NCBI GenBank assembly: GCA_019347805.1
Contig: JAHWKR010000035.1
Coordinates: forward strand, 1 to 36,890
From: Methanobacteriota archaeon
GTDB taxonomy: Archaea > Thermoplasmatota > E2 > JACPAO01 > JAHWKR01
Length of the DNA stretch: 36,890 bases
Direction: 5' to 3'
Below, one piece after another: positions 3,665 through 31,147 of the stretch; position 1 is the stretch's first letter; the number at the start of each line of letters is the position of its first letter. Position numbers and translations under genes: made by a program. A model generated the notes under the pieces. That model did not search any database. It was not told where the DNA came from and saw only the letters and a list, made by a program, of their open reading frames with translations.

Positions 3665-5749
3665 GTGGTCTCCGTGTCCCGAACCGCCCCCCTCCTCGTA
3701 TTGGCCCTCCTCGTCCTGTCGACCGTCCCGCTCGCGCTCCACGCTCAGGAGACGGTTACGCAGTCCGGGAGCGACCTGGAGATCCTCGACCCGAAGGGCG
3801 ACGTCAGTCCCTATGGGCTCCTCGGGGACGACCCGACCCCCGTCGGTGAGGTCTACGACCATGTCGATGTCGAACGGATCGTCATCGGCGCCGAGACCCC
3901 GGACACGTTCACCGTCACCTTCGACCTGGCCGGTCGCAGTGAGCCGAAGGCGATCGCCACCGAGGCGGTCGCCCTCAACGACGTCTCCTGTTACCTCCGC
4001 TGGACCTACGACGGCAAGGACGAGGTCGAATACAGGGTCGGCGTCCACGCCGGGAACTTCCTCGACGCCCCCGGCGGGGACCTGTCGCTCTATCCACAGC
4101 TCAATCGGATCGACCGCTCCGACGGCGACTACCGCTGGGATTACTGGTATCCGGAGGACGGCGCCTTCACGTTCGAATGGGACGCGGCCGAGCATTCATT
4201 CACCTGGGTCGTCGCCAAGGCCTTCACGCCGCTCCGCGCTGACGGCGAACCGCCCGCCAAGGGCGTGACCCTCACCCCCGTCTATGCCGCTTGTGGCACC
4301 GACGTCGCGTTCTTCGGCTCCCTCCAGGACCGGGTCATGACCGAGGGCCAGACGTTCCGGTTCACCGACCCCGGTGCCGGGTCCGTGGTCAAGATGCGCT
4401 TCGGCGGCCCCGAAACGAAGATCGGCACGACCGGCATCGTCCCCGGCGACGCCGTGGTGCTTCCGCTCTACGTCCTCAACACGGATGACAGCCGCAAGAT
4501 CGTCACCCTTACGGCGGCCGCCATCGCCCCCGACGGGACGACGCTGCCGTGGGAGCTCACCGTCGCGCCCCGGCTCGACCTCAAGGCGGGTGAATCCCGC
4601 GCCCTGAAGCTGGTCGCGAAGGCCCCCGCCGATGTCGCAGCCGGTGCCACGGCACGACTCCAGGTCGACCTCGAGGTCCTCGGCGTGACGGCGCCCGCAC
4701 GCGCTTCCCTCCCCGCCAAGGTGGTCCCCGTGCTCGGGCCCGACCTGGACACCTATCGTTTCTTCAGCATGAAACGCGACGCCTCGCCGACCGCGGACAT
4801 CTGGCCCGGTATGTTCGGCCCCAACGATCGAGTGACGATGTCGCTCCTCGATTCGGTCCCCGGTTTCGCACAGGACCCGGTCCTCGTCCGGCCGTTCACC
4901 GGCGGGTCTTCCTATGGTATGCTCGACCCGCTCGGCAAGGAGGTCCGGCTCGACCCGGAAGGCTTCGCCGAGCTCACGGTCGACATCCAGAGCGACCATG
5001 ACGCCAGTGTCGACATGGGGTTCGAGTTCTACATCGACGAGCTCGTCGCCGCCTGGTTCGGCGAGGTCCCGACCGGTGTCTCGACCCTCAAGTTGCCCAT
5101 CCTCAGCGAGCGCATGTCCTTCCCCGCCGGAACTCAGGTGGAGTTCTACATCTACCGCAGCATGGGCTTCGACGATGGCGTCGAGGCGCGGCTCGACCCG
5201 GCCACTTCCTCGTTCCGGCTCCCGCTCCTTCCGATCGCCGAACAGGAACTGCAGCTCACCGACGGTCGGTTCCTTCCCACCTTGGCGCTCGCGCCGGGTG
5301 AGGACAAGGAGGCCTATCTCAACGCCGGCAAGATCTATGCCTACGAGTTGGTGCTCGCCAACGAGGGCGTCGAGACGGACGACCTGACCCTTTCGGCGCG
5401 CGCGGTGAACGCCACCGGTTGGGACGTCCAGCTGGTCCCGGGTCGTTCCTTCCGTGTGCCCGCCGGCAACGCCACCATGTTCGGTGTCGAGCTCGTTCCG
5501 CCCGCGTCCGCGGTCGAGGGCGACAAGGTCGAGATCGTCGTCGAGGCGGTCTCCAAACACGACCCGGCGGCACGCGCCACGATGCGGCTCGGCGCCGTCG
5601 TGACCGGTCTCGACCTGCCGGAGAAGCGGTACGGCGTGAAGGAGGGCCAACTGCCGCCCCTCGAGGAGGCCAAGGAGGCGTCGGCGCCCACGCTCGTCGC
5701 GTTGACGGGTCTGGCCCTCGTGGCCTTGGCCCTGGCCCGGCGCCGCTGA
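3665..5749 (+). CDS. Large exported surface protein with NEW3-like Ig domain and C-terminal membrane anchor (paralogue A)
   Basis: 694 residues from GTG 3665 (GTG 3674 is an alternative). Signal peptide: RTAPLLVLALLVLSTVPLALHA, then mature protein. An N-terminal region begins LDPKGDVSP and has HVDVERIVIGAETPDTF, which looks like a beta-sandwich. A long beta-rich middle follows. Residues about 558-648 hold an Ig-like domain (YELVLANEGVETDD, ATGWDVQLVPGRSF) resembling NEW3 domains. The tail at about 673-694 is a hydrophobic helix ending in RRR. The next gene is a close paralogue, and three more distant ones lie at 21014-30499. No enzyme motif is visible; a role as a surface or adhesion protein is inferred. 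A TATA-like TTTTTTCTA lies at 3622-3630. Confidence 0.8.
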   Translation: MVSVSRTAPLLVLALLVLSTVPLALHAQETVTQSGSDLEILDPKGDVSPYGLLGDDPTPVGEVYDHVDVERIVIGAETPDTFTVTFDLAGRSEPKAIATEAVALNDVSCYLRWTYDGKDEVEYRVGVHAGNFLDAPGGDLSLYPQLNRIDRSDGDYRWDYWYPEDGAFTFEWDAAEHSFTWVVAKAFTPLRADGEPPAKGVTLTPVYAACGTDVAFFGSLQDRVMTEGQTFRFTDPGAGSVVKMRFGGPETKIGTTGIVPGDAVVLPLYVLNTDDSRKIVTLTAAAIAPDGTTLPWELTVAPRLDLKAGESRALKLVAKAPADVAAGATARLQVDLEVLGVTAPARASLPAKVVPVLGPDLDTYRFFSMKRDASPTADIWPGMFGPNDRVTMSLLDSVPGFAQDPVLVRPFTGGSSYGMLDPLGKEVRLDPEGFAELTVDIQSDHDASVDMGFEFYIDELVAAWFGEVPTGVSTLKLPILSERMSFPAGTQVEFYIYRSMGFDDGVEARLDPATSSFRLPLLPIAEQELQLTDGRFLPTLALAPGEDKEAYLNAGKIYAYELVLANEGVETDDLTLSARAVNATGWDVQLVPGRSFRVPAGNATMFGVELVPPASAVEGDKVEIVVEAVSKHDPAARATMRLGAVVTGLDLPEKRYGVKEGQLPPLEEAKEASAPTLVALTGLALVALALARRR

Positions 5750-5754
5750 GCCGC

Positions 5755-5775: not shown

Positions 5776-5795
5776 GCAGTCGCGTGGCTGCGGGA

Positions 5796-5828
5796 GCTTT
5801 ATCGTCTCCGTCTTCCTGTCGGTCCCAT
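5796..5828 (+). promoter_or_regulatory. TATA box of paralogue B, probable leaderless transcript
   Basis: GCTTTATCG lies at 5796-5804, its centre about 27 nt before the TTG start at 5828. The transcript should start at or next to the start codon. No Shine-Dalgarno sequence is present, which fits leaderless initiation. Confidence 0.5.
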
Positions 5829-7918
5829 TGCGGAACGCATCGGCTTCGCTCTTGGCCATCATCATGGTGCTCCTCGCGCTCCCGGCCCCGGCCATGGAGA
5901 CGGCCGATGATGCGCCCGCGCCGCTCGTCGTGGCCGACCCGGCCGGTGACCCGTCGCCGAACGCCCTCGTCGACGCGCCGAACCCGGTCGGGTCGGCTTA
6001 TCCGAACGTCGACATCGAGCGCTTCCTTGTGCACGAGGAGCGACCGGATTCGTTCCGTCTGACGATCGACCTCGTCGGGCGGCCGGCCACCACCGCGGTG
6101 CCCGAGGCGGTCGCGACCAACGACCTCTATTGTTCCATCGATTGGCGCTACGGCGACCGCGGCGACCGCCTCTATCGTCTGTTCGTCGGTGCGTTCAATC
6201 CGTTCGATGCCCCGGGTGGTCCGAAGAAATCGTTCTACACGGAACTGGCGCGGATCGGCGACGACGGCCGGGAAGTGGAGGGTCCTGTGTTGGAGGAGGC
6301 GGGGGTCTATGAGTTCTCGTGGGACCCGGAGGAGGTGGTCGTGTCGTTCCGCATGAGCAAGGCGGCCGTCCCGGTCGACGCGGAAGGCCGGCTGCCGTCC
6401 GCCGGTGACGTCCTCGTCCCGCAGCGTGCCCATTGTGTGACCAACATCGGGTATGGTGTCAACATCGTCGACAGGGTGGACCTCTCCGATGCGGCCTTCG
6501 CGTTCACCGACCCGGGGCCGGGGACGACGGTGCGGCTCGGGCTCGGCGGACGCATCGCCCCCTCGGAGGGTCGTTTTCCGGTGACGGGTCTGGGCGCGGG
6601 CGAGCAGGCGGTGCTGCCGTTCGAGGTGGAGAACCTCGATGCGGTGCGGAGGATCGTCTCGCTTTCTCCATCGGTCCGTGATGATGCGGGGACGCTGCTC
6701 GATTGGCCGCTCGTGATGGCGCCGCGCATCGACCTCGGGCCGCGCGAGTCGCGGACGGTCAATCTTGTCGTGCAGGTCCCGGACGACGCCGCGTTCGCGC
6801 TCGCCGCCCTCGTCCAGGTCGACCTCGAGGTGGTCGGGCTCGATGCGCCGGCGCGTGCGGCGGTGGAGGGGCGGGTCCTGCCGGTCTTGGGGCCGGGCAA
6901 TGACACCTACACGTTCCATGTGCGCACGCAGGACGGGAGCGTCCTCGCCGACCATTATCCGGGTCTGCTCCAGCACGGGACGCGCATCCTGTTGTCGCTT
7001 CTTGACGAGGTGGAGGGTTTCGATGACGCGCCGTTCATGTTGCGTCCGTTCGCCCCGCGCGCGCCCTATCTTGTGCTCGACCCGCTCGCGGGACCGGCGC
7101 GGCTCGACCCGGACGGCGTGGCGGAGTTGACGTTGGCGCTCGAGGGCGACGCGGGGGCCGATGTGCGGGTCTTGTTCGAGTTCCTCATCGACCGCGTGCC
7201 GGTCGCGCATTACACGGGCGATGTCCGGGCGGACGGGACGACGACGTTGCGGCTGCCCATCGTCGCGCCGGTGACATCGTTCCTGCTGGGCTCCGAAGTG
7301 GCGTTCGGGCTCAAGGTCGAGGTGCCGCCGGAGCGGGGCAACCTCGGTGTGCGGTTCGACCCGGCGGCCTCTTCGTTCTCGTTGCCGCTCTTGCCGGTGG
7401 CGGAGCAGCGGCTCGTGTTGTCTGATGGTCAATATCTGCCGACTCTGGGTCTTGCGCCGGGCCAGGGGAAGGAGGTCTATGTCAATCGGGGGGTGGTGCA
7501 GGCGTTCGACCTGATCGTCGCCAACGAGGGCGTCGCGACGGACGACCTTTCCCTTTCGGCACGTGTCGTGAACGCGACCGGTTGGGACGTCGACGTGGTG
7601 CCGGGCCGCGCGTTCCGTGTACCGGCGGGCAACGCCACCATGTTCGGTGTCGAGGTCGTCGCGCCGAGAGCGGCGGCCGAGGGCGATCGGGTGGAGGTCG
7701 TGGTCGAGGCGGTCTCGGAGCATGACCCGGCGGCACGGGCGTCGTTGCGCCTGTCCGCCGTCGTGACGGAGTTGCCTTTGCCGGAGCGGCGTTATGATGC
7801 GGGGGAGGGTCAACTCGCGCCGCTCGAGGAGGCCGAGGAGTCGCCGCCGGTCGGGCTCGCTTTCGTCGCGCTCTTCCTCTTGTTCGCCTTGGCGCGCCTC
7901 CGGCGACCGCTCTCCTGA
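5828..7918 (+). CDS. Large exported surface protein with NEW3-like Ig domain and C-terminal membrane anchor (paralogue B)
   Basis: 696 residues from a TTG start, chosen because it gives a clean signal peptide (RNASASLLAIIMVLLALPAPA) and sits at the distance expected for a leaderless transcript. The protein aligns with paralogue A along its length: DPAGDPSPNALVD near the N-terminus, DAPGG about residue 128, paired YPGL and LLPVAEQ segments, then the Ig-like domain at about 557-647 (LIVANEGVATDD, ATGWDVDVVPGRAF). The tail at about 675-696 is hydrophobic and ends in basic residues, preceded by EGQLAPLEEAEESP, almost the same as in A. Function unknown; probably exported and anchored in the cell membrane facing outward. 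Confidence 0.8.
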   Translation: MRNASASLLAIIMVLLALPAPAMETADDAPAPLVVADPAGDPSPNALVDAPNPVGSAYPNVDIERFLVHEERPDSFRLTIDLVGRPATTAVPEAVATNDLYCSIDWRYGDRGDRLYRLFVGAFNPFDAPGGPKKSFYTELARIGDDGREVEGPVLEEAGVYEFSWDPEEVVVSFRMSKAAVPVDAEGRLPSAGDVLVPQRAHCVTNIGYGVNIVDRVDLSDAAFAFTDPGPGTTVRLGLGGRIAPSEGRFPVTGLGAGEQAVLPFEVENLDAVRRIVSLSPSVRDDAGTLLDWPLVMAPRIDLGPRESRTVNLVVQVPDDAAFALAALVQVDLEVVGLDAPARAAVEGRVLPVLGPGNDTYTFHVRTQDGSVLADHYPGLLQHGTRILLSLLDEVEGFDDAPFMLRPFAPRAPYLVLDPLAGPARLDPDGVAELTLALEGDAGADVRVLFEFLIDRVPVAHYTGDVRADGTTTLRLPIVAPVTSFLLGSEVAFGLKVEVPPERGNLGVRFDPAASSFSLPLLPVAEQRLVLSDGQYLPTLGLAPGQGKEVYVNRGVVQAFDLIVANEGVATDDLSLSARVVNATGWDVDVVPGRAFRVPAGNATMFGVEVVAPRAAAEGDRVEVVVEAVSEHDPAARASLRLSAVVTELPLPERRYDAGEGQLAPLEEAEESPPVGLAFVALFLLFALARLRRPLS

Positions 7919-9355: not shown

Positions 9356-9473
9356 AGGCCGGGCGACCGAAGGTCGCATGCCCTAGCCCAAGTTCGGTTC
9401 GACAGAGGCTGACGCCCCTGTCTCACCTCACCTAAGTCTCACTCAGAAGCCTTCGGCTTCTTCGTTCAACTCA
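9356..9473 (-). repeat. Mosaic palindromic repeat block 1, directly after P1
   Basis: Three hairpins lie in order on the plus strand: 9363-9377 (GCGACC, loop GAA), 9402-9421 (ACAGAGGC with GCCCCTGT, one mismatch) and 9445-9461 (AGAAGCC, loop TTC). The last is 4 nt from the P1 stop codon. The 78 nt at 9396-9473 match 11209-11286 with five differences. The 46 nt at 9356-9401 match 11334-11379 with few differences, but the two modules are in a different order there. Confidence 0.75.
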
Positions 9474-12421: not shown

Positions 12422-12428
12422 GTTCAAT

Positions 12429-12487
12429 ACCTCCACCATGCCACGCGGGCACAGCTACTGTCGAGAACAGGATGCGGCCTTTTTACT
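12429..12487 (-). promoter_or_regulatory. P4 promoter and 5' hairpin-SD element
   Basis: TATA-like GTAAAAAGG (minus strand, about 12478-12486) predicts a start near 12456. A small hairpin TGCC/GGCA (12439-12451) lies 4 nt before GGAGGT (12429-12434). Confidence 0.45.
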
Positions 12488-16468: not shown

Positions 16469-16479
16469 GTTGGTGGTTT

Positions 16480-16538
16480 CCTCCAAGTCGTCCCGAACGG
16501 ACGGGACAGGCGGACCACCGTCGCCCGGTCTAAGACCT
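16480..16538 (-). promoter_or_regulatory. P7 promoter and 5' hairpin-SD element
   Basis: GGAGG (16480-16484) is preceded by a GTCCCG/CGGGAC hairpin (16490-16507). A weak TATA-like CTTAGACC (about 16528-16535) would start the mRNA at about 16506, at the first base of the hairpin. Confidence 0.4.
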
Positions 16539-18774: not shown

Positions 18775-19653
18775 ATGCACAGATCCCTGCTCGTCGCGAT
18801 CGCCAGTCTCCTCTTCATACCCGCCCTGGCGGGTTGCCTTGGAGGCGATGATGCCCCGGACACCACTGACGACGACGGTCTTTGCGACGACAAGACCTGC
18901 GATGTCGAGAACAAGGACATCACCAAGGGCATGGGCCGCGTCGAGGGCTCGGTCAAGAACGCCGATTTCCAGGACCTTGCCGGCGCCAACGTGACGCTCA
19001 AGGAACTGGCGCTCACCACGATCACCAACGAGAAGGGCAAGTACGCCTTCAACGACCTCGAACCCGGTCTCTACACGATCCTCGCCGCCGCCCCGGGCCA
19101 CGCACCGGACGGCCGCCAGGTCGAGGTCAAGCCCGACGAGACCACCACGGTCGACATCGGTCTTGAAGAGCTTCCGCCGACCGCGGAACCCTACCGCTCC
19201 TCGCTCGTCGAGAACTCGGGCATGCTCGGTTGCGGTTTCTCGGCCGCCAAGTCGCTGCGCGGCAACCCGTGCGCCGACCTCGGTGACGAGAACGACAAGA
19301 ACACCTTCACTTTCGCCATGGACGCCGGTGTCACCGCCATCGCCATGCACCTCGAGGCGGACAACCCGCCCGCCAAGTATCCGGACAACCTCGAGTTCTT
19401 CTGGAAGTGGGACAACCCGCCCGGCGTCCCCAAACCGATCACCGGTCCGACGCCGCTGTCGGCCATCAAGGAGTTCGAGAAGGACAGCGCCGGATGGCAG
19501 GAGAGCCCGCGCGAGGCGAAATATGTCATCCTGCTCAACAAGGACGCGTCCAGTCCCCAGTTCGCGTACCAGATGCGCTTCACCACCTGGGTCGTCGTCT
19601 TCTACAACGGCGAGCCGGTGCCGAGCGGCTTCAGCCCCAAACCCGACGCCTAG
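18775..19653 (+). CDS. Lipoprotein 1 of cassette 1, with carboxypeptidase-regulatory-like domain
   Basis: 292 residues. A lipobox LAGC puts the lipid-bearing cysteine at residue 21. After an acidic linker, residues about 54-130 form a CarboxypepD_reg-like beta-sandwich: GRVEGSVKNADFQDLAGANV, LKELALTTITNEKGKYAFND, LEPGLYTILAAAPGHAPDGRQ. The rest (about 160 residues) is beta-rich with two cysteines and aligns to its paralogue at 25920. It is probably tethered to the outer face of the cell membrane. It heads an apparent operon with lipoprotein 2 (37 nt gap) and the large surface proteins. Shine-Dalgarno GGAGGT supports the start. Function unknown. Confidence 0.82.
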   Translation: MHRSLLVAIASLLFIPALAGCLGGDDAPDTTDDDGLCDDKTCDVENKDITKGMGRVEGSVKNADFQDLAGANVTLKELALTTITNEKGKYAFNDLEPGLYTILAAAPGHAPDGRQVEVKPDETTTVDIGLEELPPTAEPYRSSLVENSGMLGCGFSAAKSLRGNPCADLGDENDKNTFTFAMDAGVTAIAMHLEADNPPAKYPDNLEFFWKWDNPPGVPKPITGPTPLSAIKEFEKDSAGWQESPREAKYVILLNKDASSPQFAYQMRFTTWVVVFYNGEPVPSGFSPKPDA

Positions 19654-19690
19654 TCTCTTCCTACGATTCCACTACGAGGTGCTCACCAAC

Positions 19691-21001
19691 ATGCGAATCC
19701 GTACCGCGAACCTGAGGATGCTCGTCATCCTCGCTGCCGTTCTCATCGCCCCCCTTTCGGGCTGCTTCAGCGACGACAAGGCGAAGCCGAGCGACGATGC
19801 CGCCGACGGGGTCACCGTCGATGCGCCCCCTGAAGCCAAGACGGAGGAGACCGGCGAGGTCATCAAGGACCACACCAACTCCGCCGACCCCAAGGCGCAC
19901 TTCCACCACCTGTGGAACGGGCGTGAAGAGGTCATCCTTTGGAAGGACAGCGAGCCGGTCGAGTTCAAGACCATGGATTTCACCTTCGTCGGTGAGTACC
20001 GCTCCATGACCTGGGCCGAGTTCGACCTCGAGGACGACGGTGACGACAACAGCGACCCGCTCGCCGCCGACGCGGCGCCCAAAAACGTCGCCGACGTCGT
20101 CTTCGCCGGTACCGACTACATCGAGGCGACCTTCCCGGACCGCTTCTTCGACGGTGTCGGCAAGCTCAGCTTCTTCTGGAAGCCCGCCAACACGAACACC
20201 TTCGGCGGCGGCATCACGGTCAATCCGGAGGACGTGGTCCGCATCCACCTCGGTCAGACCGGCATGGCGGACCCGGCCCACCAGAACGCCGTCTCGCGCT
20301 GGAAGTTCCGCCTCGTCGCCTTCGAGACGAACGAGGTGTGCGAACTCGGCGGCGACACCACCCGTGCCCTCTGCCCGCCGGCCATGGCCACCGAGGCCCC
20401 GACCGACCCGGAGAACCCGACCCTCAAGATGGGCGGCTTCGGGATGATCGCCCACAACGGCGGTACCGAATCACTCGACCCGCCGCACCCCGACTTCTGG
20501 GGCAGCGCGAACACCTTGGTCTTCAAGACCATCGAGCGCGAGGTCACCGACCCGGTGGTCCAGACCCCGGTCGTGCGCGAAAAAAGCCCGCTTCTCACCG
20601 ACATCGCCCCGCTCCCGGGGGACGTCGTCCCGATGGGCACCGAGCGCGTCGAGGTGACGGTCGACTGGGAAGCGTCCCAGGCCCCTGACAACTTCCTCCT
20701 CAAGCTCCGCTACCACGGTGCGGACGACATCGACTACATCGACGCCCAGCCGAAGGACGGAACGGAGAAGACCGGCGCGAGCCCTGATGGCGGCAACACC
20801 TACGTCATCTACAACGTGGAAGGCGGCAAGGACCTGGGTCTTGTCGACCCGCCCTACGAGGCGCGCAGCTTCTGGCGCTTCGAGGTCGTGCCGTCGCTCA
20901 TGGACCCGCAGAACAGCGCCGTCGAGAACGCCGGCGTCTTCCAGGGATCGTTCAGCATCTCTGTGAAGGTGTTCAAGCAGGAGGGTTTCGTCCTCACCTA
21001 G
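19691..21001 (+). CDS. Lipoprotein 2 of cassette 1
   Basis: 436 residues from ATG 19691, preceded by GAGGTG. A lipobox LSGC puts the cysteine at residue 25. An acidic linker is followed by a His-containing segment (KAHFHHLWNG) and a beta-rich body with motifs shared with the paralogue at 26940: FPDRFFDGV, DPAHQNAVSRWKF, MIAHNGGTESLDPPHPDFW, VPMGTERVEV, VDPPYEARSFWRFEV. No enzyme motif is seen. The stop codon runs into the GGAGGTG of the next gene, so the two are surely co-transcribed. Probably a surface-exposed partner of lipoprotein 1 and the anchored protein. Confidence 0.8.
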   Translation: MRIRTANLRMLVILAAVLIAPLSGCFSDDKAKPSDDAADGVTVDAPPEAKTEETGEVIKDHTNSADPKAHFHHLWNGREEVILWKDSEPVEFKTMDFTFVGEYRSMTWAEFDLEDDGDDNSDPLAADAAPKNVADVVFAGTDYIEATFPDRFFDGVGKLSFFWKPANTNTFGGGITVNPEDVVRIHLGQTGMADPAHQNAVSRWKFRLVAFETNEVCELGGDTTRALCPPAMATEAPTDPENPTLKMGGFGMIAHNGGTESLDPPHPDFWGSANTLVFKTIEREVTDPVVQTPVVREKSPLLTDIAPLPGDVVPMGTERVEVTVDWEASQAPDNFLLKLRYHGADDIDYIDAQPKDGTEKTGASPDGGNTYVIYNVEGGKDLGLVDPPYEARSFWRFEVVPSLMDPQNSAVENAGVFQGSFSISVKVFKQEGFVLT

Positions 21002-21013
21002 GAGGTGCTCATC

Positions 21014-23353
21014 ATGACAAACAAGACACTCAGCGTATCCATCGCACTCGTCATGCTCGTGGGCACCGTGCCCTTCTTCCTTCCGGGCGTGGAAGCCCAG
21101 GCCCCCGGGGACGTCATCCTCTCCGACGGACCGGGCGACGTCGTACTGACCACCCCCACCTGCACCCCGCCCGACATCTCCTGCCGCAGGGAAGGCAGCA
21201 CCAACGACCCCACCGCGGCCCCTGCGCCCGACGGCATGAAATCGATCGATCTGACGGAGGTGCGGCTCTACGGTGAGACCCCGACCGAGTTCTGGATCGG
21301 GTTCAGCGTGGTCGACTTCGTCCGCCCCAACGCCCCCGCCGGCGCCTACCACACCTTCGTGGTCTGTTTCGACTGGGACGCCACAGGGAGCTGGTACCGG
21401 CTCTGGGTCAAGCTGGAGTACCCGGTCGGGAACGGCGAAGGCGCCACCGTCAAGCCAAAGCCGACACCCGACATCCGTTTCGACGAGGTCGCCACGGAGG
21501 CGGAATGCGCCCACACCTCCTTCGTCGGCAGCCCCAACAACGGCCGCATGCCGACGTCCTTCCTCGACCCGGTCCTGGACATCGAGGGCAAGACCTTCGA
21601 CGTGCGCATCCCGCGCCTCGGCATGGAAGAGATGAGGCCGTTGGACCAACCGCCCAAGCCGGTCCCCGGCGCGGGAGACACGTTCAGCTCGCTCACGGCG
21701 AAGTCGACGGCGCAGAGCGGGTCGTCGGTCTACCACGCCTATGATGTGGCCGGCCCCGGCTCGGACACTTTCACCTTCCAGACCGACACCGGCAACAGCG
21801 TCCTCCGGGTCAACGTCCAGGAGAACGTCAACGGCGCCTCGAACGGCGTCGAATCGACCGGCGGCGTGCCCATCTACGGCGTCGAGGTCGGCTCGTTCCA
21901 GACGGTGCCCCTCATCATCGAGAACCACCTGCCGGAACCCCTCAACGTCAACGTCACGGCGACCATCCTGGACGCCACCGACAAGGGCGCCTGGGACCTC
22001 AGGGTCATCCCGAACATCCCTGTGAAGGGCAAGGTCGGCGATGTCCCCGGCACCGAGACGGTGACGCTCATCGTCAACACCGACACATCGGTCTCGCACA
22101 AGGACCGGGCGCGCCTCTTGATCAGCGCCAAGGACGCCCGTTACCCCGAACTGCTCGGCGCGGGCCTGGTCGACGTCCTCGGTGTGCAACCGCCGAAGGC
22201 CGGCGCGAGCAAGGTCTTCTTCCACACCACCGGCCGCACCTGCGTGACGGCCGCGCACTGGGTCAACACGCTCCAGAGCGACGCCAAGGCGACCGCGAAC
22301 GAGCTTCCGTTCAACTCGTGCGACGTCGCCGGCGGTGGCGAGGCGACCATCGCCGGCGCCTCGGGCATCACGTTCCGACCGGACGTGCCGTTCTCGCGCG
22401 ACTACACCTTCTCCGTCACGGAGCCCGCGATGGGCCAGGTGGCGTTCAAGGCGGTCGCCAAGCTGCCCGGTCAGGAGCACGAGGCCCCCACCACGATGGT
22501 GGCGGACGTCTCCGTGTCGCTGACAAGCGGCGGCCAGTTGCTCGGCGAGACGATCATGACCAACCAGCTCATCGACGCCGACGGGACCGTGCTGCCGTTC
22601 GAGATCCACATCGACGCGCCGCTCCTTGGCGCGAAGGGCCGCGAGGTGCCGAACGACCGGCCGCTCGCCATCCGGGTGTCGGTCGACCCGCAGGACCGGA
22701 CCTTCGTCGTCTGTTCGGACGTCTGCGATCCGCTCCCGGAAGAGGAGCGGACGCTGCCCGACCCGTCGGCGTTGGTCGGGAAGATCTTCATGTTGACCCG
22801 CCAGTCCGAGGTGACGCTGCCGATCATCGACAGCCGCAAGTCGGGCGACCTGATCAACATCACCGCCTCGGGTGCGCTCATCTCGCTGCGTCTGTCGCAA
22901 CTGGACGCCGAGAAAAGCCGCTTCACGAACCCCGGCAAGACCGTCGTCTACAACGTCACGGTCCGCAACGAGGGCGTGAACGTCGACACGGCGACCATCG
23001 ACGCCTCGATCAACCGCACAGGCTGGAAGGCGGAGATCCTTCCGGTGCGCAGCTACAAGCTGGCGATCGGCGAGGCGCGTTCGTTCAACATCCGCGTCAC
23101 CGCCCCCGAGGACGCCCGTGAGGGCGAGCAGCTCGGTGTCACCGTCCGGGCGACCAGCAAGGTCGATCCCGAGGCGATGGCGACGCTGCCGCTTGTCATC
23201 GAGGCGACGAACGGTGTGCAGTTCGAGGACGATGTGATCGACGAGAACCTGCAGAAGGTCGACAAGGCGGAGGAGAGTCCGTCGCCGGTCTTCCTGCCGG
23301 TCCTGGCCCTCATCGGTCTGGCCGCTTGGCTCGGCCGTCGGCGGCGTCTCTGA
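21014..23353 (+). CDS. Large anchored surface protein of cassette 1 (paralogue C, NEW3-like Ig domain)
   Basis: 779 residues from ATG 21014; the Shine-Dalgarno AGGAGGTG overlaps the upstream stop. Signal peptide SIALVMLVGTVPFFLPGVEA, then QAPGDVILSDGPGDV. Shared motifs: DLTEVRLYGETPTEFW, VVCFDWDATGSWYRLWVKLEY, FDVRIPRLGMEE, TGRTC followed by AAHWVNTL, and NPGKTVVYNVTVRNEGVN, where the NEW3-like domain begins (about 639-735). The tail is EESPSPVFLPVLALIGLAAW then GRRRR. It shares long near-identical stretches with paralogue D. Cysteines are few and paired. It is probably anchored in the membrane with the bulk outside; ligand unknown. Confidence 0.82.
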   Translation: MTNKTLSVSIALVMLVGTVPFFLPGVEAQAPGDVILSDGPGDVVLTTPTCTPPDISCRREGSTNDPTAAPAPDGMKSIDLTEVRLYGETPTEFWIGFSVVDFVRPNAPAGAYHTFVVCFDWDATGSWYRLWVKLEYPVGNGEGATVKPKPTPDIRFDEVATEAECAHTSFVGSPNNGRMPTSFLDPVLDIEGKTFDVRIPRLGMEEMRPLDQPPKPVPGAGDTFSSLTAKSTAQSGSSVYHAYDVAGPGSDTFTFQTDTGNSVLRVNVQENVNGASNGVESTGGVPIYGVEVGSFQTVPLIIENHLPEPLNVNVTATILDATDKGAWDLRVIPNIPVKGKVGDVPGTETVTLIVNTDTSVSHKDRARLLISAKDARYPELLGAGLVDVLGVQPPKAGASKVFFHTTGRTCVTAAHWVNTLQSDAKATANELPFNSCDVAGGGEATIAGASGITFRPDVPFSRDYTFSVTEPAMGQVAFKAVAKLPGQEHEAPTTMVADVSVSLTSGGQLLGETIMTNQLIDADGTVLPFEIHIDAPLLGAKGREVPNDRPLAIRVSVDPQDRTFVVCSDVCDPLPEEERTLPDPSALVGKIFMLTRQSEVTLPIIDSRKSGDLINITASGALISLRLSQLDAEKSRFTNPGKTVVYNVTVRNEGVNVDTATIDASINRTGWKAEILPVRSYKLAIGEARSFNIRVTAPEDAREGEQLGVTVRATSKVDPEAMATLPLVIEATNGVQFEDDVIDENLQKVDKAEESPSPVFLPVLALIGLAAWLGRRRRL

Positions 23354-23358
23354 GGCGC

Positions 23359-23396
23359 TCCTCATCTCTTCCCTCCATCTCCCCTTTTTTCCCTCC
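23359..23396 (+). terminator. Pyrimidine tract with T6 between paralogues C and D
   Basis: A long C/T run with TTTTTT follows the stop of C. It may end part of the transcripts before paralogue D. Confidence 0.4.
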
Positions 23397-23432
23397 GCGG
23401 TGCCCAGGGCGACCGTCACCAGGTAGGATCAC

Positions 23433-25745
23433 ATGACCAAGAGGACGCAGAGCGCCACCATCCTGCTCATCCTCCTCCTTGTCGGCGCGGTGCCGGCCCT
23501 CTCCCCCGGGGTCGAGGCGCAGGCGCCCGGAGACGTCAAGGTCAGCGACGGTCCCGGCGACGTGGCGCTCATGCCGCCGACCAAGGAGACCCAGGACACC
23601 CCCACCCCGGCGACCTATCCCGAGGGCATGAAATCGGTCGACCTCACCGAGGTGCGGCTCTATGGCGAGACCCCGACCGAGTTCTGGCTCGGGTTCAGCG
23701 TCCTCGACTTCACCCGGCCGAACGCCCCCGCGGGCACGTTCCACACCTACGTGGTCTGTTTCGACTGGGACACGACGGGCAGCTGGTACCGGCTCTGGGT
23801 CAAGCTCGAATACCCGCTCGGCGGCGGCGAAGGCCCCGCCGTGAAACCCAAGGGCACACCGGCCGTCCGCTTCGACCAGATCGCCGACGCATCGGCCTGC
23901 ACGCACACCGCCTTCGTCGGCAGCGACAACGACGGCCGCATGCCGGTGCAGTACATCGAGCCGGTCCTCGACATCGAGGGCAAGACCTTCGACGTGCGCA
24001 TCCCGCGCATCGGCATGGAGGAGATGGCCCCCGCGAACGAGCCGCGCAAGCCGGTGCCGATGTCGGGCGGATCGTTCGGGAACCTGCAGGCGCGCTCGAC
24101 GGCCCACACCGGTTCGTCGATCTACCATGCCTTCGACATGGCCGGCCCCGCGAGCGACCGCTTCACGTTCCAGACCGACACCGGCAACAGTGTGCTCCGT
24201 GTCAACGTCGAGGAGAACGTCAACGGCGCCTCGAACGGTGTCGAGGAGACCGGCGGCGTGCCCATCTATGGCGTCGAGACCGGTTCTTTCCAGACCGTGC
24301 CGATTGTCATCGAGAACCACCTGCCGGAACCGCTGGACGTCAACATCACGGCGACGGTGCTCGACGCCACCGACAAGGGTGCCTGGGACCTCAGGGTCAT
24401 CCCGAACATCCCGGTCGCCGGCAAGGTCGGCGACAAGCCGGGTGTCGAGACGGTGACGCTCATCGTCCACACCGATCCCTCCATCTCGCACAAGGACCGC
24501 GCGCGGGTCCTGGTCTCGGCCACCGACCCGCGCCATCCGGGGCTCCTCGGTGCCGGTCTTGTCGATGTCCTCGGTGTCCAACCGCCGACAGCGAGCGAGA
24601 ACCAGGTCCATTTCCATTCGACGGGCCGCACCTGCACCTCCGCGGCGCATTGGATCAACACGTTGGCGGAGGACCCGAAGGCGACCGCCAGCGAGCTGCT
24701 CATGCGCTCATGCGACATCGCCGGCGGTGGCGAGGGGACGGTCGCCGGTGCCTCGGGCATCACGTTCCGGCCCGACGTCCCGTTCGCCCGCGACTACACG
24801 TTGTCCGTCACGGAACCCGCCAAGGGCCAGGTGGGGTTCAAGGCGGTCGCCAAACTGCCCGGGCAGGACCAGGAGGCGCCGACGTCGATGGTGGCCGATG
24901 TCGTCGTGACGCTGACGAGCGGTGGCCAGTTGCTCGGCGAGGCGGTCATGACCAACCAGCACATCGACGCCGCCGGGACGGTGCTGCCCTTCGAGATCCA
25001 CGTCGACGCGCCGCTTCTGGGCGCGAAGGGACGCGAGGTGCCGAACGACCGACCGCTCGCCATCAGGGTGTCGGTCGACCCGCAGGACCGCACCTTCGTC
25101 TTCTGTTCGGAGGCCTGCCAGCCGCTCCCGGAGGAAGAGCGGACGGTGCCCGACCCGTCGGCGGTCGCCGGCCGGTTCTACATGCTGATGGACAAGTCGC
25201 ATGTCACCTTGCCGATCGTCGACAGCCGAAGGTCGGGCGACCTCATCAACACCACCGCCTCGGGTGCGCTCATCTCGTTGCGCCTGGCGGACCCCGCCGC
25301 GGAGAAATCACGGTTCACGAACCCCGGAAAGACGGTCGTCTACAACGTCACGGTGCGCAACGAAGGGGTCAACGTCGACACGGCGACCATCGACGTCTCC
25401 TTGAACGCCACAGGGTGGCGAGCGGAGATCCTTCCGGTGCGCAGCTACAAGCTCGCCATCGGTGAGGGGCGCTCGTTCAACATCCGCGTCGTCGCCCCTG
25501 AGGAGGCGCGTGAAGGCGAACGCTTGGGCCTGAAGGTCAAGGCGACGAGCAAGGTCGACCCCGAGGCGGTCGCCATCCTGCCGTTCGTCATCGAGATCAC
25601 GCACGGCGTCGATTTCGCCGACGACGTCATCGATGAGAACCTGCAGAAGGTCGACAAGACGGAGGAGAGCCCGTCGCCGGTCCTCCTGCCGCTTCTCGCC
25701 TTGGTCGGCCTGGCCGCGTGGCTCGGCCGAAGACGCAGGCGATAG
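23433..25745 (+). CDS. Large anchored surface protein, second copy in cassette 1 (paralogue D)
   Basis: 770 residues. Signal peptide SATILLILLLVGAVPALSPGVEA, then QAPGDVKVSDGPGDV. It is collinear with paralogue C over its whole length, with many identical segments (SVDLTEVRLYGETPTEFW, NVNGASNGVE, GAWDLRVIPNIPV, SGLITFRP-like region, NPGKTVVYNVTVRNEGVN). It differs mainly near residues 45-60. The NEW3-like domain is at about 628-726. The tail has EESPSPVLLPLLALVGLAAW then GRRRRR. The two genes arose by tandem duplication. The start has AGGTAGGATC upstream. Confidence 0.82.
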   Translation: MTKRTQSATILLILLLVGAVPALSPGVEAQAPGDVKVSDGPGDVALMPPTKETQDTPTPATYPEGMKSVDLTEVRLYGETPTEFWLGFSVLDFTRPNAPAGTFHTYVVCFDWDTTGSWYRLWVKLEYPLGGGEGPAVKPKGTPAVRFDQIADASACTHTAFVGSDNDGRMPVQYIEPVLDIEGKTFDVRIPRIGMEEMAPANEPRKPVPMSGGSFGNLQARSTAHTGSSIYHAFDMAGPASDRFTFQTDTGNSVLRVNVEENVNGASNGVEETGGVPIYGVETGSFQTVPIVIENHLPEPLDVNITATVLDATDKGAWDLRVIPNIPVAGKVGDKPGVETVTLIVHTDPSISHKDRARVLVSATDPRHPGLLGAGLVDVLGVQPPTASENQVHFHSTGRTCTSAAHWINTLAEDPKATASELLMRSCDIAGGGEGTVAGASGITFRPDVPFARDYTLSVTEPAKGQVGFKAVAKLPGQDQEAPTSMVADVVVTLTSGGQLLGEAVMTNQHIDAAGTVLPFEIHVDAPLLGAKGREVPNDRPLAIRVSVDPQDRTFVFCSEACQPLPEEERTVPDPSAVAGRFYMLMDKSHVTLPIVDSRRSGDLINTTASGALISLRLADPAAEKSRFTNPGKTVVYNVTVRNEGVNVDTATIDVSLNATGWRAEILPVRSYKLAIGEGRSFNIRVVAPEEAREGERLGLKVKATSKVDPEAVAILPFVIEITHGVDFADDVIDENLQKVDKTEESPSPVLLPLLALVGLAAWLGRRRRR

Positions 25746-25756
25746 CGTCCCCACCT

Positions 25757-25780
25757 GCCTTCTTCCTTCACTTTCTTCTC
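25757..25780 (+). terminator. Pyrimidine-rich tract after paralogue D
   Basis: A C/T run with several TTC and TTT blocks starts 12 nt after the stop. A new TATA-like element (CGTTTTTGCC, about 25830-25839) and a hairpin CCGTCAC/GTGACGG (25879-25896) follow, belonging to the leader of cassette 2. Confidence 0.4.
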
Positions 25781-25919
25781 ACCGGGCGGAAGCGGGGCCG
25801 ACACCCTCCTTTCGCGTCGTGACCACAAACCGTTTTTGCCTCGCCGTGTCCTCCCTTCCGTCGCCTTGCGTCAGGTCCCCGTCACCAGTGTGACGGACGC
25901 GGGTGCCAGAGGCATGACC

Positions 25920-26816
25920 ATGGCGTCCCGTCCGACCGTATCCGTAGGCCTGTCCCTGATCCTTGTCGCGCTCGCGCTCTCCGGTTGCACCGACGGCGAC
26001 CGGCCCACACCCCCGGCCGTCCCGCCGGAGTGTTCGGAGACGGAGCGTTGCCGCATCGAGGGGCCGAACGAACCGGGCAAGGGGCGCATCGTGGGCGCCG
26101 TCAAGGACCTCGACTTCCAGCCGGTCGAGGGGGCGAACGTCACCCTCAAGGAACTGGCCATCGTGACCCGCACCGACGCGGAGGGCCTGTTCGCGTTCAA
26201 CCGGCTCGAGCCGGGCCTCTACACGGTCCTCGTCGCCGCGCCCGGCCATGCTGCGGACGGCCGGCAGGTGGAGGTCAAGGCGGACGAGGAGACCCGCGTC
26301 GATGTCCTTCTGGAGGCGCTTCCGGAGACGACGGCGCCCTACCGCACCGACATCCACCAACTCACCGGCTTCATCGGGTGCACGCTCGCCACCAAGGGCA
26401 AGACGCGCGGCAACACCTGTGGCAGGGTCTCGGAGGATCCGAACTACAAGAGCGATTTCCGTGTCCCGATGGACGCGGGGCTCACCGCGGTCGGCATGGC
26501 CCTCGACGCCGCCGCACCGCCGCCCGGTTCGACGTCCGACCTGGTCTACAGGGTGTGGTGGACCAACCCGCCGAACGTCATCCCGCCGATGATCGGCAAG
26601 ACCGGGGTCGACGAGGTCAAGATGGTCCCGCCTGGGGGTTGGCAGGAGTCGCCGCGCGGGACGACGGAGGACACAAGCCCCGCGGTCGTCAACGTCGAGC
26701 TCGACAACGGCGAGCGTGAGGCGCAGTTCACCTACCAGCACAAGTTCGACCTCTACCTCGTCTTCTTTCACAACGGCGAGCCGGTGCCGGACGGTTTCTC
26801 CGCCCGCCCGGATTGA
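25920..26816 (+). CDS. Lipoprotein 1 of cassette 2, with carboxypeptidase-regulatory-like domain
   Basis: 298 residues from ATG 25920, chosen because AGAGG lies 7 nt upstream; ATG 25914 is the alternative. The lipobox LSGC gives the cysteine at residue 23. The CarboxypepD_reg-like domain reads GRIVGAVKDLDFQPVEGANV, LKELAIVTRTDAEGLFAFN, LEPGLYTVLVAAPGHAADGR, nearly the same as in the first cassette. The C-terminal half also aligns (PYRTDIHQLTGFIGC, MDAGLTAVGMALDA, GWQESPR, FFHNGEPVPDGFSARPD). A separate promoter upstream means cassette 2 can be expressed alone. Confidence 0.82.
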   Translation: MASRPTVSVGLSLILVALALSGCTDGDRPTPPAVPPECSETERCRIEGPNEPGKGRIVGAVKDLDFQPVEGANVTLKELAIVTRTDAEGLFAFNRLEPGLYTVLVAAPGHAADGRQVEVKADEETRVDVLLEALPETTAPYRTDIHQLTGFIGCTLATKGKTRGNTCGRVSEDPNYKSDFRVPMDAGLTAVGMALDAAAPPPGSTSDLVYRVWWTNPPNVIPPMIGKTGVDEVKMVPPGGWQESPRGTTEDTSPAVVNVELDNGEREAQFTYQHKFDLYLVFFHNGEPVPDGFSARPD

Positions 26817-26838
26817 ATTTTCGCCACATGACCATAAG

Positions 26839-26931
26839 CGATTTTTATCCTGCTCTTCTCCCTCCATCCCTTCAGCCCGCCTGTCGTCAGGTCCCCACCC
26901 CCACGTGGACGCCAGGCACCACCCGAGGTGC
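26839..26931 (+). promoter_or_regulatory. Promoter of lipoprotein 2' and hairpin that includes its SD
   Basis: The TATA-like GATTTTTATCC (about 26841-26850) predicts a start near 26871. In the leader, GCACC (26916-26920) pairs with GGTGC (26927-26931), placing the GAGGTG ribosome-binding site in the 3' arm. CCTG/CAGG and GTCC/GGAC stems lie further upstream. Confidence 0.4.
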
Positions 26932-26939
26932 AAGCATAC

Positions 26940-28259
26940 ATGGTGTCCACCACCGCTCGACGAGCGCAAGCCATCGGCCTTCTGGCCCTGTTGACCGTAT
27001 CCCTCCTTCTGGCCGGCTGCATGGGCGACGATCCGCCGAAACAACGTCCGGACGACGACGGGGCCACATACACGCCCGACGCCCAGGTCCAGTCCCCCCA
27101 GGAAGAAGGCATCGATCCCATGACGCCCACCGGTGAGCCCGACGACGACGACACCGCCCATCATCACGACCAATGGCTCGGACGGGAAGCGGTCTTCGTC
27201 TGGCGGGACGCCCCTGTGCGGTTCCAGCAGTTCGACCTCGCCAAGGTCGGCAGCCATGGCACCTTGACGTGGGCCGGGTTCGGCTTCGAGGACGACGACT
27301 CGCAGGTCGACGACCCCAACACGCACGACCCCGCGCCCGAAAACCACGCCGATGTCGTCTTCGGCGGCACCGCCAACATCACGGTGACCTTCCCCGACCG
27401 CTTCTTCGACGGCGTCGACCGGCTCCACTTCTACCACCAGGCGGCCGACACGAACGCCTACACCGGCCCCACGCTCGTCCGACCCGGTGACACCCTGGTC
27501 ATCCCGCTCGACCGGATCGGGATGGCCGACCCGCCGCACCAGAACGCCGTCAGCCGCTGGCGTTTCCTCCTCGTCGTCGCCGAGGACCATGAACAGCACC
27601 CGTGCATGCTCGGCGCGCCGACCACGGAACCCGCATGTCCGCCCGCGTTCGCCCGCGAAGCCCCCCAGGACCCGAACGACCCGAAGCTCCTCCTCCACGA
27701 CCTCGAGATGATCGCCCACAACGGCGGCACCGCGTCGCTCGACCCGCCGCACCCCGACTTCTGGCAGGGCGCCGACACATTGTGGCTCGGCGAGACCGCG
27801 GCGCGCGCCGACGAACCGGTCCTCTGGACCCCGCTTTTGCGCCAAGCCGACCATCCGCTCGACGACCTGCGTCTGCCAAGCGGCAGCACCGTCCCGATGG
27901 GCACCGGTCACGTCACCGTCGAGGTGGAATGGACGGCCGACCCCGCCACCCCCCTCACACGGCTCCGTCTCTTCTACCATGGCGCCGACACCACGGTCTA
28001 CCAGGCCGCCACACCCACCACGGAGCCGGGATGCGAAGGAGCGGTCTGCACGCGATCCTATCGCATCGACAACGTAGTGGGTGGCGTCGACCAGGGCCTT
28101 GTCGACCCGCCCTACGAGGCGCAGAGTTTCTGGCGCTTCGCCCTCGCACCGAGCGACATCGAGAGCGAGACCCCACGCGGCGAGGCGCGCATCGGCGCCT
28201 TCCAGGGCGACGTGTCGCTGAGGGCGACGGCCCACCGCGCCGTGGAGGTGTTCGCATGA
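26940..28259 (+). CDS. Lipoprotein 2 of cassette 2
   Basis: 439 residues from ATG 26940. The lipobox LAGC gives the cysteine at residue 27. A long acidic linker with DDDDTAHHHDQW precedes the body shared with 19691-21001: FPDRFFDGVDRLHF, DPPHQNAVSRWRF, MIAHNGGTASLDPPHPDFW, VPMGTGHVTVEVEW, LFYHGADTTVY, VDPPYEAQSFWRF. Cysteines occur in the same places (near HPCML and ACPP). The stop overlaps the start of the next gene (ATGA), so translation of the two is coupled. It has a promoter of its own. Function unknown; probably surface exposed. Confidence 0.8.
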   Translation: MVSTTARRAQAIGLLALLTVSLLLAGCMGDDPPKQRPDDDGATYTPDAQVQSPQEEGIDPMTPTGEPDDDDTAHHHDQWLGREAVFVWRDAPVRFQQFDLAKVGSHGTLTWAGFGFEDDDSQVDDPNTHDPAPENHADVVFGGTANITVTFPDRFFDGVDRLHFYHQAADTNAYTGPTLVRPGDTLVIPLDRIGMADPPHQNAVSRWRFLLVVAEDHEQHPCMLGAPTTEPACPPAFAREAPQDPNDPKLLLHDLEMIAHNGGTASLDPPHPDFWQGADTLWLGETAARADEPVLWTPLLRQADHPLDDLRLPSGSTVPMGTGHVTVEVEWTADPATPLTRLRLFYHGADTTVYQAATPTTEPGCEGAVCTRSYRIDNVVGGVDQGLVDPPYEAQSFWRFALAPSDIESETPRGEARIGAFQGDVSLRATAHRAVEVFA

Positions 28260-30499
28260 ACCCCAGACACCCGGCCTTCGTCTTCGTCGCCCTCCTGGTC
28301 CTCGTCACCCTCCCGCTCCCCGGGAGCGCCCAACAAGAGCCGGAGGCGGTCGTCCAGGACGCACGCGGCGACCTGCGCCCCGTGGGCCCCGACGACGCCC
28401 TGGTCGAAGAAGCGCCCGGCGCCGACCTCTTCCCGCCGGCCGACATCACCGAGGTGCGCCTATATGGCGAGACGGCGACCGAGATCGCCATCGCGCTCAC
28501 CGTCGCCGACCTCCATCGGCCGGCCGGGCCCGGGCCCACCGGCGCGGCGCATGTCGTCTGCTTCGAATGGAGCGCCACCGGTGACACCTATCGGCTCTTC
28601 CTCGAGTTCCTCTACTCCGCCTTCGCGACCGACGTGAGCGCGCCTCCGGATCAGGTGCGCTACGCCTTCGACCGTGTCGTCGGACCCGAGTCGTGTAGAC
28701 CGAACATCCTGGTCGGCGACGGCGGCGTCGCCCACATGAGCCATATCTTCGTCCTGCCCGAGGTCGACGTCGACGCCGCGCGCGCCGTCGTCACACTGCC
28801 CCGGCTCGCGTTCCGCGAACTCGCCCTCGAAGGCGAGGCGCAGGTCGTGCCGTCCGGCGGCGACACCTGGAGCGGCTTGCGTGCCGCGAGTGTCGCCCGC
28901 ACGGGGCCGCACGTCGACCCGTTCGGCGACACCACGGAAGAGACCGCCACCTTCACGTTCGCGAGCGACACCGGCAACGAGCTGTTGCGCGTCCTCGTCG
29001 ACGCCGAGGCCGGGCAGGACGGCCGCGACGGCGCCGTGCCGGTGCATGGCGTCGAGACCGGGCGCTACCAGGCCGTGCCGCTGCGCATCGAGAACGACCT
29101 CGAGGAGCCGCTCACCCTGCGGCTTTCCGCCGACGTCGTCACCGGGGACCCGACCCGCTGGTTCCTGTTCGTCGTCGACGAGACCACCGTCCCGGGGGCC
29201 ACGGCGGCCGGTCCGGGTGTGCGCATCGTCACGCTCGTCGTCAACGCCGAGCCGGGCGTCGGCCACAAGGAGACCGCCCGCGTCAACGTGCGCGCCGTCC
29301 CCGTAGAACGTCCCGATGTGCTCGGCTCGGGTCTCGTCGACATCCAAGGGGTGCGCCCACCCACCGAGGCGGACCCGCTCGTACGGTTCCACTCGACGGG
29401 CGACACCTGCAGTTCCGCCGCCCACTGGATGAACACCCTCGAGCGTGACGCGAAGGGCGCCGCGAAGGAGGTGCGCCTGCGTTCGTGCGACACCGGAGGG
29501 GGCGACCTGTTCGCACCGGCCCAGGTCGGTCTGACGTTCCGCGCCGACGTGCCCTGGTCGCGCGACTATTACCTCTCCACCACAGAACCGGCGGCATTGA
29601 CCTTCGGCTTCCGCACCGCGATCACCCTCCCGGGCCAGGAGACCGAGGCCGGTACACCGGTCATCGCCGACCTTTCCGTGACGCTCGCCTCCGGGGGCAC
29701 CCTCATCGGCGAGGCCACCGTCCGCAGCGCACGGCTGACGGAGACACCGACACCGTTCACGTTCGAGATCCCCATCGACGCGGCGGTCTTCGGGGAACGC
29801 ACCCGGGCCGTCCCGGACGACCGGCCGCTCGCGGTGCGGGTCGCCGTCGCCCACCCGCAGCGCACGGTCGTGGTCTGCGAAAAAGACCTCTGCGGCGTCG
29901 AGGAGGAGGTGACCCTGTTCGACCCGGCGACGATGGGGAACCGCGTCTTTTTGGTGCTTGACGGTGCCGAGGCCGACCTGCCCATCGTCGAGAGCCGTCC
30001 TGCCGGACCCGTCCTCAACATCACGAGAAGCGGTGCGCTCGTCACCATGGGTGTCGAAGGCGAAAAAGAGCGCTTCGTCAACCCCGGCAGGAGCGCCGTC
30101 TTCAACGTCACGGTGCGCAACGAAGGGCTGCACGACGACCTCGTGACACTCGCCGCGATCGCCGATTCCGAAAGATGGCGCGTCCGGCTCGACCCGGGCG
30201 ACAAGCTGCGGCTCGGGCGCGGTGAGGAGGCGACGGTGCGCATCGCGGTGCAGGCGCCGGAGGACGCCGAGGAGAAGGAGCGGCTCGTCGTGCGATTGAC
30301 GGCGACGAGCGGTGTCGACGACCTGGCGCAGGTGAGCGAGCGCTTCACGGCGACCGTCACGAAGGGCGTCGAGATCGCCGAGCACCCGGACGGCACGTTC
30401 AGCGACCCACCGAAGGAGAAGAAGAGCCCCGGCGTCCCGTTCGTCGCCATCGTCGCGCTCCTTGTCGGTGTCGCGGTGTGGCGACGACGCAGGACGTGA
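28256..30499 (+). CDS. Large anchored surface protein of cassette 2 (paralogue E, NEW3-like Ig domain)
   Basis: 747 residues. It overlaps the preceding gene by 4 nt and has GGAGGTG inside that gene. Signal peptide AFVFVALLVLVTLPLPGSA. Motifs shared with C and D: DITEVRLYGETATEIA, VVCFEWSATGDTYRLFLEF, TGDTCSSAAHWMNTLE, NPGRSAVFNVTVRNEGL (start of the NEW3-like domain, about 607-701). The tail has KKSPGVPFVAIVALLVGVAVW then RRRR. It is more diverged than C and D are from each other, so cassette duplication came before the C/D duplication. Confidence 0.82.
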   Translation: MNPRHPAFVFVALLVLVTLPLPGSAQQEPEAVVQDARGDLRPVGPDDALVEEAPGADLFPPADITEVRLYGETATEIAIALTVADLHRPAGPGPTGAAHVVCFEWSATGDTYRLFLEFLYSAFATDVSAPPDQVRYAFDRVVGPESCRPNILVGDGGVAHMSHIFVLPEVDVDAARAVVTLPRLAFRELALEGEAQVVPSGGDTWSGLRAASVARTGPHVDPFGDTTEETATFTFASDTGNELLRVLVDAEAGQDGRDGAVPVHGVETGRYQAVPLRIENDLEEPLTLRLSADVVTGDPTRWFLFVVDETTVPGATAAGPGVRIVTLVVNAEPGVGHKETARVNVRAVPVERPDVLGSGLVDIQGVRPPTEADPLVRFHSTGDTCSSAAHWMNTLERDAKGAAKEVRLRSCDTGGGDLFAPAQVGLTFRADVPWSRDYYLSTTEPAALTFGFRTAITLPGQETEAGTPVIADLSVTLASGGTLIGEATVRSARLTETPTPFTFEIPIDAAVFGERTRAVPDDRPLAVRVAVAHPQRTVVVCEKDLCGVEEEVTLFDPATMGNRVFLVLDGAEADLPIVESRPAGPVLNITRSGALVTMGVEGEKERFVNPGRSAVFNVTVRNEGLHDDLVTLAAIADSERWRVRLDPGDKLRLGRGEEATVRIAVQAPEDAEEKERLVVRLTATSGVDDLAQVSERFTATVTKGVEIAEHPDGTFSDPPKEKKSPGVPFVAIVALLVGVAVWRRRRT

Positions 30500-30532: not shown

Positions 30533-31147
30533 TCAGGCGGGTGGCGTCTCTTCCTTCGCCTTCTTGCAGATGGCGAGGAAGTTGCGGAACATCGTCACAC
30601 CATGCTCGGTGTGCTCCACCTCGGGATGGAACTGAGCGCTGAAGATGCGCCGGTCGCGGTCGCGCATCACCTGCACGGGACAACCTTCGCTCTTCGCGAG
30701 CACCTCGAAGCCGGGGGGCACCTTGTTGACCTCGTCATGATGGCTCTCCCACACCACCGACCGTTCCGGCACACCGGCCAAAAAATCGGGCTCTTCGTGC
30801 GGCAGGACGATGAGCTCCGTGGAACCGAACTCACCCTCGCCGGGCGCGGCGTCGCCGCCGAAGTGGCGCGCGATCAACTGGTGGCCCGCGCAGAGGCCGA
30901 GGACCGGATAGGGCGCGTTGTCGAGGATGTCGCCGCAATTGCCGAGCGTACCGGTGACACCGACGCGCGGCGCGCCGCCGGACAGCAGGATGCCGTCGAG
31001 GTCCGCCGCCTCGAGCTCAGACCAAGACGTGTCGTTGGGGACCATCTTCGTCTCGACCCCCAGATACTTGAGCACCCGCCATTCGCGATGGGTCCATTGG
31101 CCCCCGTTGTCCACGACATAGATCTTCAGGTCGGCTCCGTCCGGCAT
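30533..31147 (-). CDS. guaAA: GMP synthase, glutamine amidotransferase subunit (subunit A)
   Basis: 204 residues. This class I glutamine amidotransferase domain stands alone, as in archaea where the two halves of GMP synthase are separate genes. The nucleophile elbow GLCAGHQ has Cys86; the His and Glu of the triad are in QFHPEVEHTEHG (His174, Glu176). It supplies ammonia from glutamine to subunit B, which converts XMP to GMP in the cytoplasm. The synthetase subunit is not in this window. A minus-strand TATA (GCTTTAAGG, about 31189-31197) predicts a leader of about 20 nt. It converges on paralogue E, with 33 nt between the stops. Confidence 0.95.
   Translation of the reverse strand: MPDGADLKIYVVDNGGQWTHREWRVLKYLGVETKMVPNDTSWSELEAADLDGILLSGGAPRVGVTGTLGNCGDILDNAPYPVLGLCAGHQLIARHFGGDAAPGEGEFGSTELIVLPHEEPDFLAGVPERSVVWESHHDEVNKVPPGFEVLAKSEGCPVQVMRDRDRRIFSAQFHPEVEHTEHGVTMFRNFLAICKKAKEETPPA

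Follow-up and report, generated by a model that had tools for sequence, protein, structure and literature searches.

A tandemly duplicated lipoprotein and anchored-protein cassette of an uncultured archaeon and the recurrence of its L2-L3 gene pair

The window analysed, a stretch of 36,890 nt, consisted of bases 1-36890 of contig 44 (C44) of an archaeal genome of 2.94 Mb that comprises 81 contigs (genome label G000). The L1-L2-L3 cassettes, the further L3 genes and two genes named by reading the sequence were located as follows.

L1a, 18775..19653, + strand: lipoprotein (lipobox LAGC) with a CarboxypepD_reg/transthyretin-like domain and a C-terminal domain (L1C)
L2a, 19691..21001, + strand: lipoprotein (lipobox LSGC) with two homologous beta-rich domains and the motifs HxHxxW (H70, H72, W75), D194xxH197 and PPH266PDFW
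L3a, 21014..23353, + strand: large protein with a signal peptide, an N-terminal domain and a pair of NEW3-like domains, ending in a hydrophobic segment and an RRRRL tail
L3a2, 23433..25745, + strand: recent duplicate of L3a, 76% identical
L1b, 25914..26816, + strand: paralogue of L1a, 44%
L2b, 26940..28259, + strand: paralogue of L2a, 45%, with the same His motifs
L3b, 28256..30499, + strand: paralogue of L3a, 40-41%
L3c, 3665..5749, + strand: distant L3 paralogue, unaccompanied by L1 or L2
L3d, 5828..7918, + strand: distant L3 paralogue, 47-48% identical to L3c and likewise unaccompanied by L1 or L2
EF-1-alpha gene, 2017-3279, - strand
GMP-synthase amidotransferase-like gene, 30533-31147, - strand

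Comparison of the proteins showed that the L1-L2-L3 order was present twice, head to tail, as a first-pass annotation of this DNA had described, with 40-45% identity between the copies (L1 44%, L2 45%, L3 40-41%). The further doubling of L3 in copy 1 (L3a and L3a2) and the two distant L3 paralogues at 3665-7918 were likewise recovered; L3c and L3d aligned with the cassette L3s mainly in the C-terminal NEW3/anchor part. Each of the three genes had, by a wide margin, its closest match in the genome in the other window copy, so the sequences would fit a single old duplication of the whole L1-L2-L3 block, followed by a younger duplication of L3a.

Other genes were also found in the window. A small pair on the + strand (946-1140 and 1182-1424) encoded a DUF7557-type protein and a ParE-like toxin (E 1.2e-06) and is likely a type II toxin-antitoxin. 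Six secreted paralogues of approximately 200-230 aa formed one array on the - strand (9466-10134, 10261-10902, 11753-12439, 13197-13862, 14952-15635, and 15872-16486), with a C.GS.G...VDMS-like motif at the end; the two that were tested had no Pfam match. Within this array lay an ion-channel-like protein (14097-14810, - strand; Ion_trans_2, E 1.5e-08). A tandem pair of secreted paralogues with PGF-like C-terminal anchors was located at 31295-32347 and 32446-33471 (+ strand).

The gap between L1a and L2a was 37 nt, the L2a stop was followed at once by a Shine-Dalgarno sequence, with 12 nt between this stop and the L3a ATG, and the L3b ATG overlapped the L2b stop (ATGA, -4). These spacings agreed with the first-pass annotation, in which the three parts were held to be made together. 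The gap between L1b and L2b, on which it was silent, was 123 nt; therefore, co-production is firm for L2 and L3 only. In a crude look at up to 90 nt upstream of L2a, L3a, L2b, and L3b, no clear AT-rich promoter box was seen.

By reading, a lipobox Cys followed the signal peptide in all four lipoproteins (LAGC in L1a and L2b, LSGC in L2a and L1b). The CarboxypepD_reg label first given to L1 was borne out by the profile PF13620 (E 1e-15), with scores of 57.9 bits for L1a and 55.5 bits for L1b against a gathering cut-off of 32.3. L1 shares this domain with the CarboxypepD_reg (PF13620)/transthyretin-like lipoproteins, and the domain was common to L1 and the L2-type fusions tested in genome G002; L1 differs from such lipoproteins in preceding L2-L3 and in having an additional C-terminal domain of its own (approximately 155 residues, with its own conserved residues). 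Homology of this C-terminal domain to that of L2 was not supported (hhalign 6-10% probability). There were 14 L1 matches in the window's genome, 12 of them outside the cassettes and without partners, and 41 in G002. On contig C28 of the window's genome, three L1 matches stood consecutively with L2 and L3 absent. No L1 adjoined the two L2-L3 pairs located in other genomes (G002:C124 and G059:C15). The best reading of L1 is that of a lineage-specific third part, recruited before the block was duplicated.

In L3, a signal peptide and an N-terminal domain common to the paralogues were accompanied by two NEW3-like domains, and the hydrophobic C-terminus bore an Arg tail. The NEW3 label proved approximate: the resemblance to NPCBM_assoc/NEW3 (PF10633) was present, but all five window L3s scored below the gathering cut-off of 24.4 bits [L3a 24.0 (residues ~639-714), L3a2 21.1, L3b 11.1, L3c 19.2, and L3d 21.7], and the domains are here called NEW3-like. 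The tail of L3a matched MYXO-CTERM/GC_trans_RRR (TIGR03382) with 16.8 bits against a cut-off of 15.85, that of L3a2 matched the related TIGR03901 under its cut-off, and L3b had no match. Processing of L3-type tails is possible, since the genome includes a gene for an exosortase/archaeosortase-like protein (E 2.6e-22). NEW3 (PF10633) proteins with sorting tails of the MYXO-CTERM or PGF-CTERM type share with L3 the NEW3-like domains, the hydrophobic stretch and the Arg tail; L3 differs from them in domains that lie under the Pfam cut-off, a tail without a PGF or Cys motif, and very few full-length relatives. The model of L3 had a pLDDT of 59 overall, mostly 70-88 around residues 290-390 and 620-730, and showed a chain of beta-sandwich domains. 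A fold search with this model returned generic Ig-chain matches only (query-normalised TM up to 0.16), which added nothing to this description.

Eight full-length L3s were found in the window's genome. Three were in the cassettes, and five had neither lipoprotein alongside [two at C44:3665-7918, the others on C28, C57, and C18]. A profile search of 390 genomes of the phylum, with a profile that included the members of G002:C124 and G059, gave full-length L3 matches, among those listed, in G000, G002, and G059 only; the remaining listed matches spanned the NEW3 part or little more. In G002, four L3-type genes stood in tandem on contig C162 (L079, 3686-12442) with no lipoprotein between them.

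L2 consisted of a lipobox and two beta-rich domains, and its two halves were homologous (hhalign 99%). The motifs HxHxxW and PxHxxxW stood before the first strand of the respective halves, and D194xxH197 in half 1 aligned with D386xxY389 in half 2, where Tyr replaces His. Outside the signal peptide region, searches of the family (21 members) against Pfam, NCBIfam, and PDB sequences revealed no match better than chance. The L2 family thus appears undescribed in these databases, while the other part types are known in outline. An AlphaFold2 model of L2, built from an alignment of three sequences, had a pLDDT of 43, and its fold was discarded.

Overall identity of the family members to L2a, L2b excepted, was 18-31%, mostly 20-30%. 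Among 34 members, D194, W204, D386, and Y389 were each conserved in 34/34, H197 and H266 each in 33/34, W75 in 32/32, and H70 and H72 each in 31/32; the lipobox residues G24-C25 were near-invariant. Four histidines and acidic residues kept so strictly most often form a metal site. Because HxHxxW, DxxH, and PxH are nearly invariant in so diverse a family, they suggest a putative metal site in L2. A link to the copper biology of Angelarchaeales (PMC9038741) was dropped because a search for CuMMO in the window's order found none.

L2-family members were present in 8 of the 390 genomes of the phylum, so far in one order, that of the window, and in one other class only, that of G059, with five of its seven searched genomes. 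In ten members from G002 and G003, a transthyretin-like (TTR) domain was fused ahead of the double domain. Of the 26 members without this domain, 22 had no adjacent L3; therefore, L2 can work without L3. In the window's genome, a third full-length L2 was located on C32 with neither L1 nor L3 adjacent, and a more distant member on C17. L2-family genes of one clade (L146 at G059:C7, L147 at G078:C101, and L148 at G091:C260) adjoined genes that by eye resemble nucleotide-sugar dehydrogenases, with TFB-like genes (also read by eye) beside them at G078:C101 and G091:C260; this conserved neighbourhood may point to surface glycans.

At four loci, which represent three genera, an L2 gene immediately preceded an L3 gene on the same strand: the two window copies, G002:C124, and G059:C15. 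The spacing was 12 nt for L2a-L3a, -4 for L2b-L3b, 9 nt at G002:C124, and -4 (ATGA) at G059:C15; the junction at G002:C124 consisted of a TAG stop, GGGGAG (Shine-Dalgarno), and then ATG. G059 belongs to a different class of the same phylum. Its locus was located by L2 alone, and the neighbour afterwards matched the L3N (1e-10) and NEW3 (1e-20) models, which had been built without that protein. By a rough estimate, five L2-type matches in a genome of ~2,700 genes with a single full-length L3 give a probability of chance adjacency of ~1 in 500. Gene calls in three very GC-rich genomes were made with another codon model. Since two of the four loci duplicate each other, the independent L2-L3 observations number three at most. 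A scan of 84,980 genomes by short patterns, which reaches close relatives only, returned one record beyond the window's genome, the groundwater MAG JACPAO01 ("Euryarchaeota archaeon"), corresponding to G002:C124.

In the L2 tree, the four L3-linked L2s and the orphan L2 of C32 formed one clade (support 94/90, not starred), in which G059 branched off, then G002, then G000. A matching L3 clade was not rejected (p-AU 0.43), nor was it positively recovered. The occurrence of L2-L3 in two classes may reflect either vertical descent or gene transfer. At the loci examined, no metal transporter or enzyme stood consistently beside the L2-L3 pair. No PADLOC model for anti-phage defence matched, and the cassette as a defence system was rejected on that account.

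The two lipoproteins had been proposed always to accompany the large protein. This did not hold: five of the eight L3s and 12 of the 14 L1 matches stood without partners, as did the third full-length L2, and both L1 and L3 were found scattered independently, L1 at the loci counted above and L3 alone at many loci. Co-occurrence thus failed for the trio, which was not found outside the window in the genomes searched, and was upheld for the L2-L3 pair, which recurred at two loci beyond the window, both in other genera and one of them in another class. An obligate three-part system was accordingly rejected as a general rule, with L1 and L3 scattered and L1 absent at both other L2-L3 loci. The earlier proposal is partly supported, in the smaller form of a two-part L2-L3 unit with L1 as a local third part: the coupled L2-L3 recurs in other genera, and those L2s share the clade of the window.

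Several explanations of the cassette were weighed. Our favoured explanation, held with a little less than even confidence, is that L2 and L3 form a surface module of two parts whose translation is coupled, in which L2 is probably a metal-dependent binder, L3 an anchored stalk, and L1 a later addition. A clearly less likely explanation is a cluster of paralogues without a shared machine, in which secreted and anchored beta-sandwich proteins, whose families are greatly expanded in this order, lie together and each member acts alone as cell coat or adhesin. The scatter of L1, with 14 matches in its own genome and 41 in G002, the occurrence of L3 singly or in tandem arrays of 2-4, the many loci at which L2-family members stand alone, and the further arrays of anchored and secreted paralogues within the window agree with such a cluster; however, chance would not maintain L2 and L3 in one order, on one strand, and -4 to +12 nt apart in three genera and two classes with a single clade of L2.

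An obligate L1-L2-L3 surface complex for binding or uptake, the model first proposed, is improbable. Although the full order is kept in two copies at similar divergence, and the ten TTR-L2-type fusions of G002 and G003 hint that both domain types can cooperate, neither G002:C124 nor G059:C15 has an L1, L3a2, L3c, and L3d have no lipoprotein of their own, 123 nt separate L1b from L2b, the C-terminal domain of L1 is unrelated to that of L2, and the transthyretin-like domain is promiscuous. There is also only a slight chance that L2 acts as an enzyme at the surface, a metal-dependent hydrolase or oxidase of two domains that is kept close to the membrane and presented by L3. Four His, two Asp, and two Trp that are nearly invariant amid high diversity have the pattern of an active site, and tandem homologous domains with histidine ligands recall the PHM/DBH copper monooxygenases. 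However, no enzyme profile of Pfam, NCBIfam, or PDB matched, the second repeat carries Tyr in place of the His of the first, and a substrate or pathway context is absent around the genes. For copper type II monooxygenases (PHM/DBH), no match to L2a or L2b was obtained at E up to 10; for the PHM/DBH profiles against the L2 family, there was no Pfam match at E up to 1 and none in PDB.

In the favoured two-part module, L2 would be the lipid-anchored binding part, with H70, H72, H197, H266, and D194 probably holding a metal ion (zinc or copper) that would form or stabilise a ligand site at the junction of the two domains. L3 would be a long chain of NEW3-like beta-sandwich domains with a C-terminal membrane anchor that carries or partners L2 at the surface, presumably in physical contact with it and possibly with a role in uptake. 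The transthyretin-like lipoprotein L1 would be a further surface part, recruited in the lineage and then duplicated with the block.

Literature searches, with subscription papers outside their scope, turned up no described system of this composition, in agreement with the first-pass annotation. The Thermococcales hypervariable Ig-domain gene module (PMC8416519) is an archaeal arrangement of a large Ig-domain protein and a neighbouring gene set, which resembles the L3 cassette; no sign of hypervariable downstream genes was seen at the L1-L2-L3 cassette. At G002:C94 (L083, 3541-8735), two L2-type lipoproteins of the TTR-double-domain form stood directly 5' of a large anchored protein, an order similar to that of the cassette at first sight; however, the anchored protein was an M14 carboxypeptidase unrelated to L3, and the locus was rejected as a third trio. 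By sequence, the cassette resembles archaeal arrangements of surface lipoproteins with anchored beta-sandwich proteins, and the L2 family with its conserved site appears to be new to the libraries searched.

Rather doubtful is the reading that L2 is a new family of archaeal surface metalloproteins and L2-L3 a new surface system of two parts, a receptor or an enzyme, with L3 displaying L2 on the exterior of the cell. If true, uncultured members of this archaeal phylum would possess an undescribed surface protein family that combines a conserved site open to in vitro testing with a partner gene that is also conserved. Some of the very numerous lipoproteins and anchored beta-sandwich proteins in these genomes, nearly all of obscure role, would then gain a first function.
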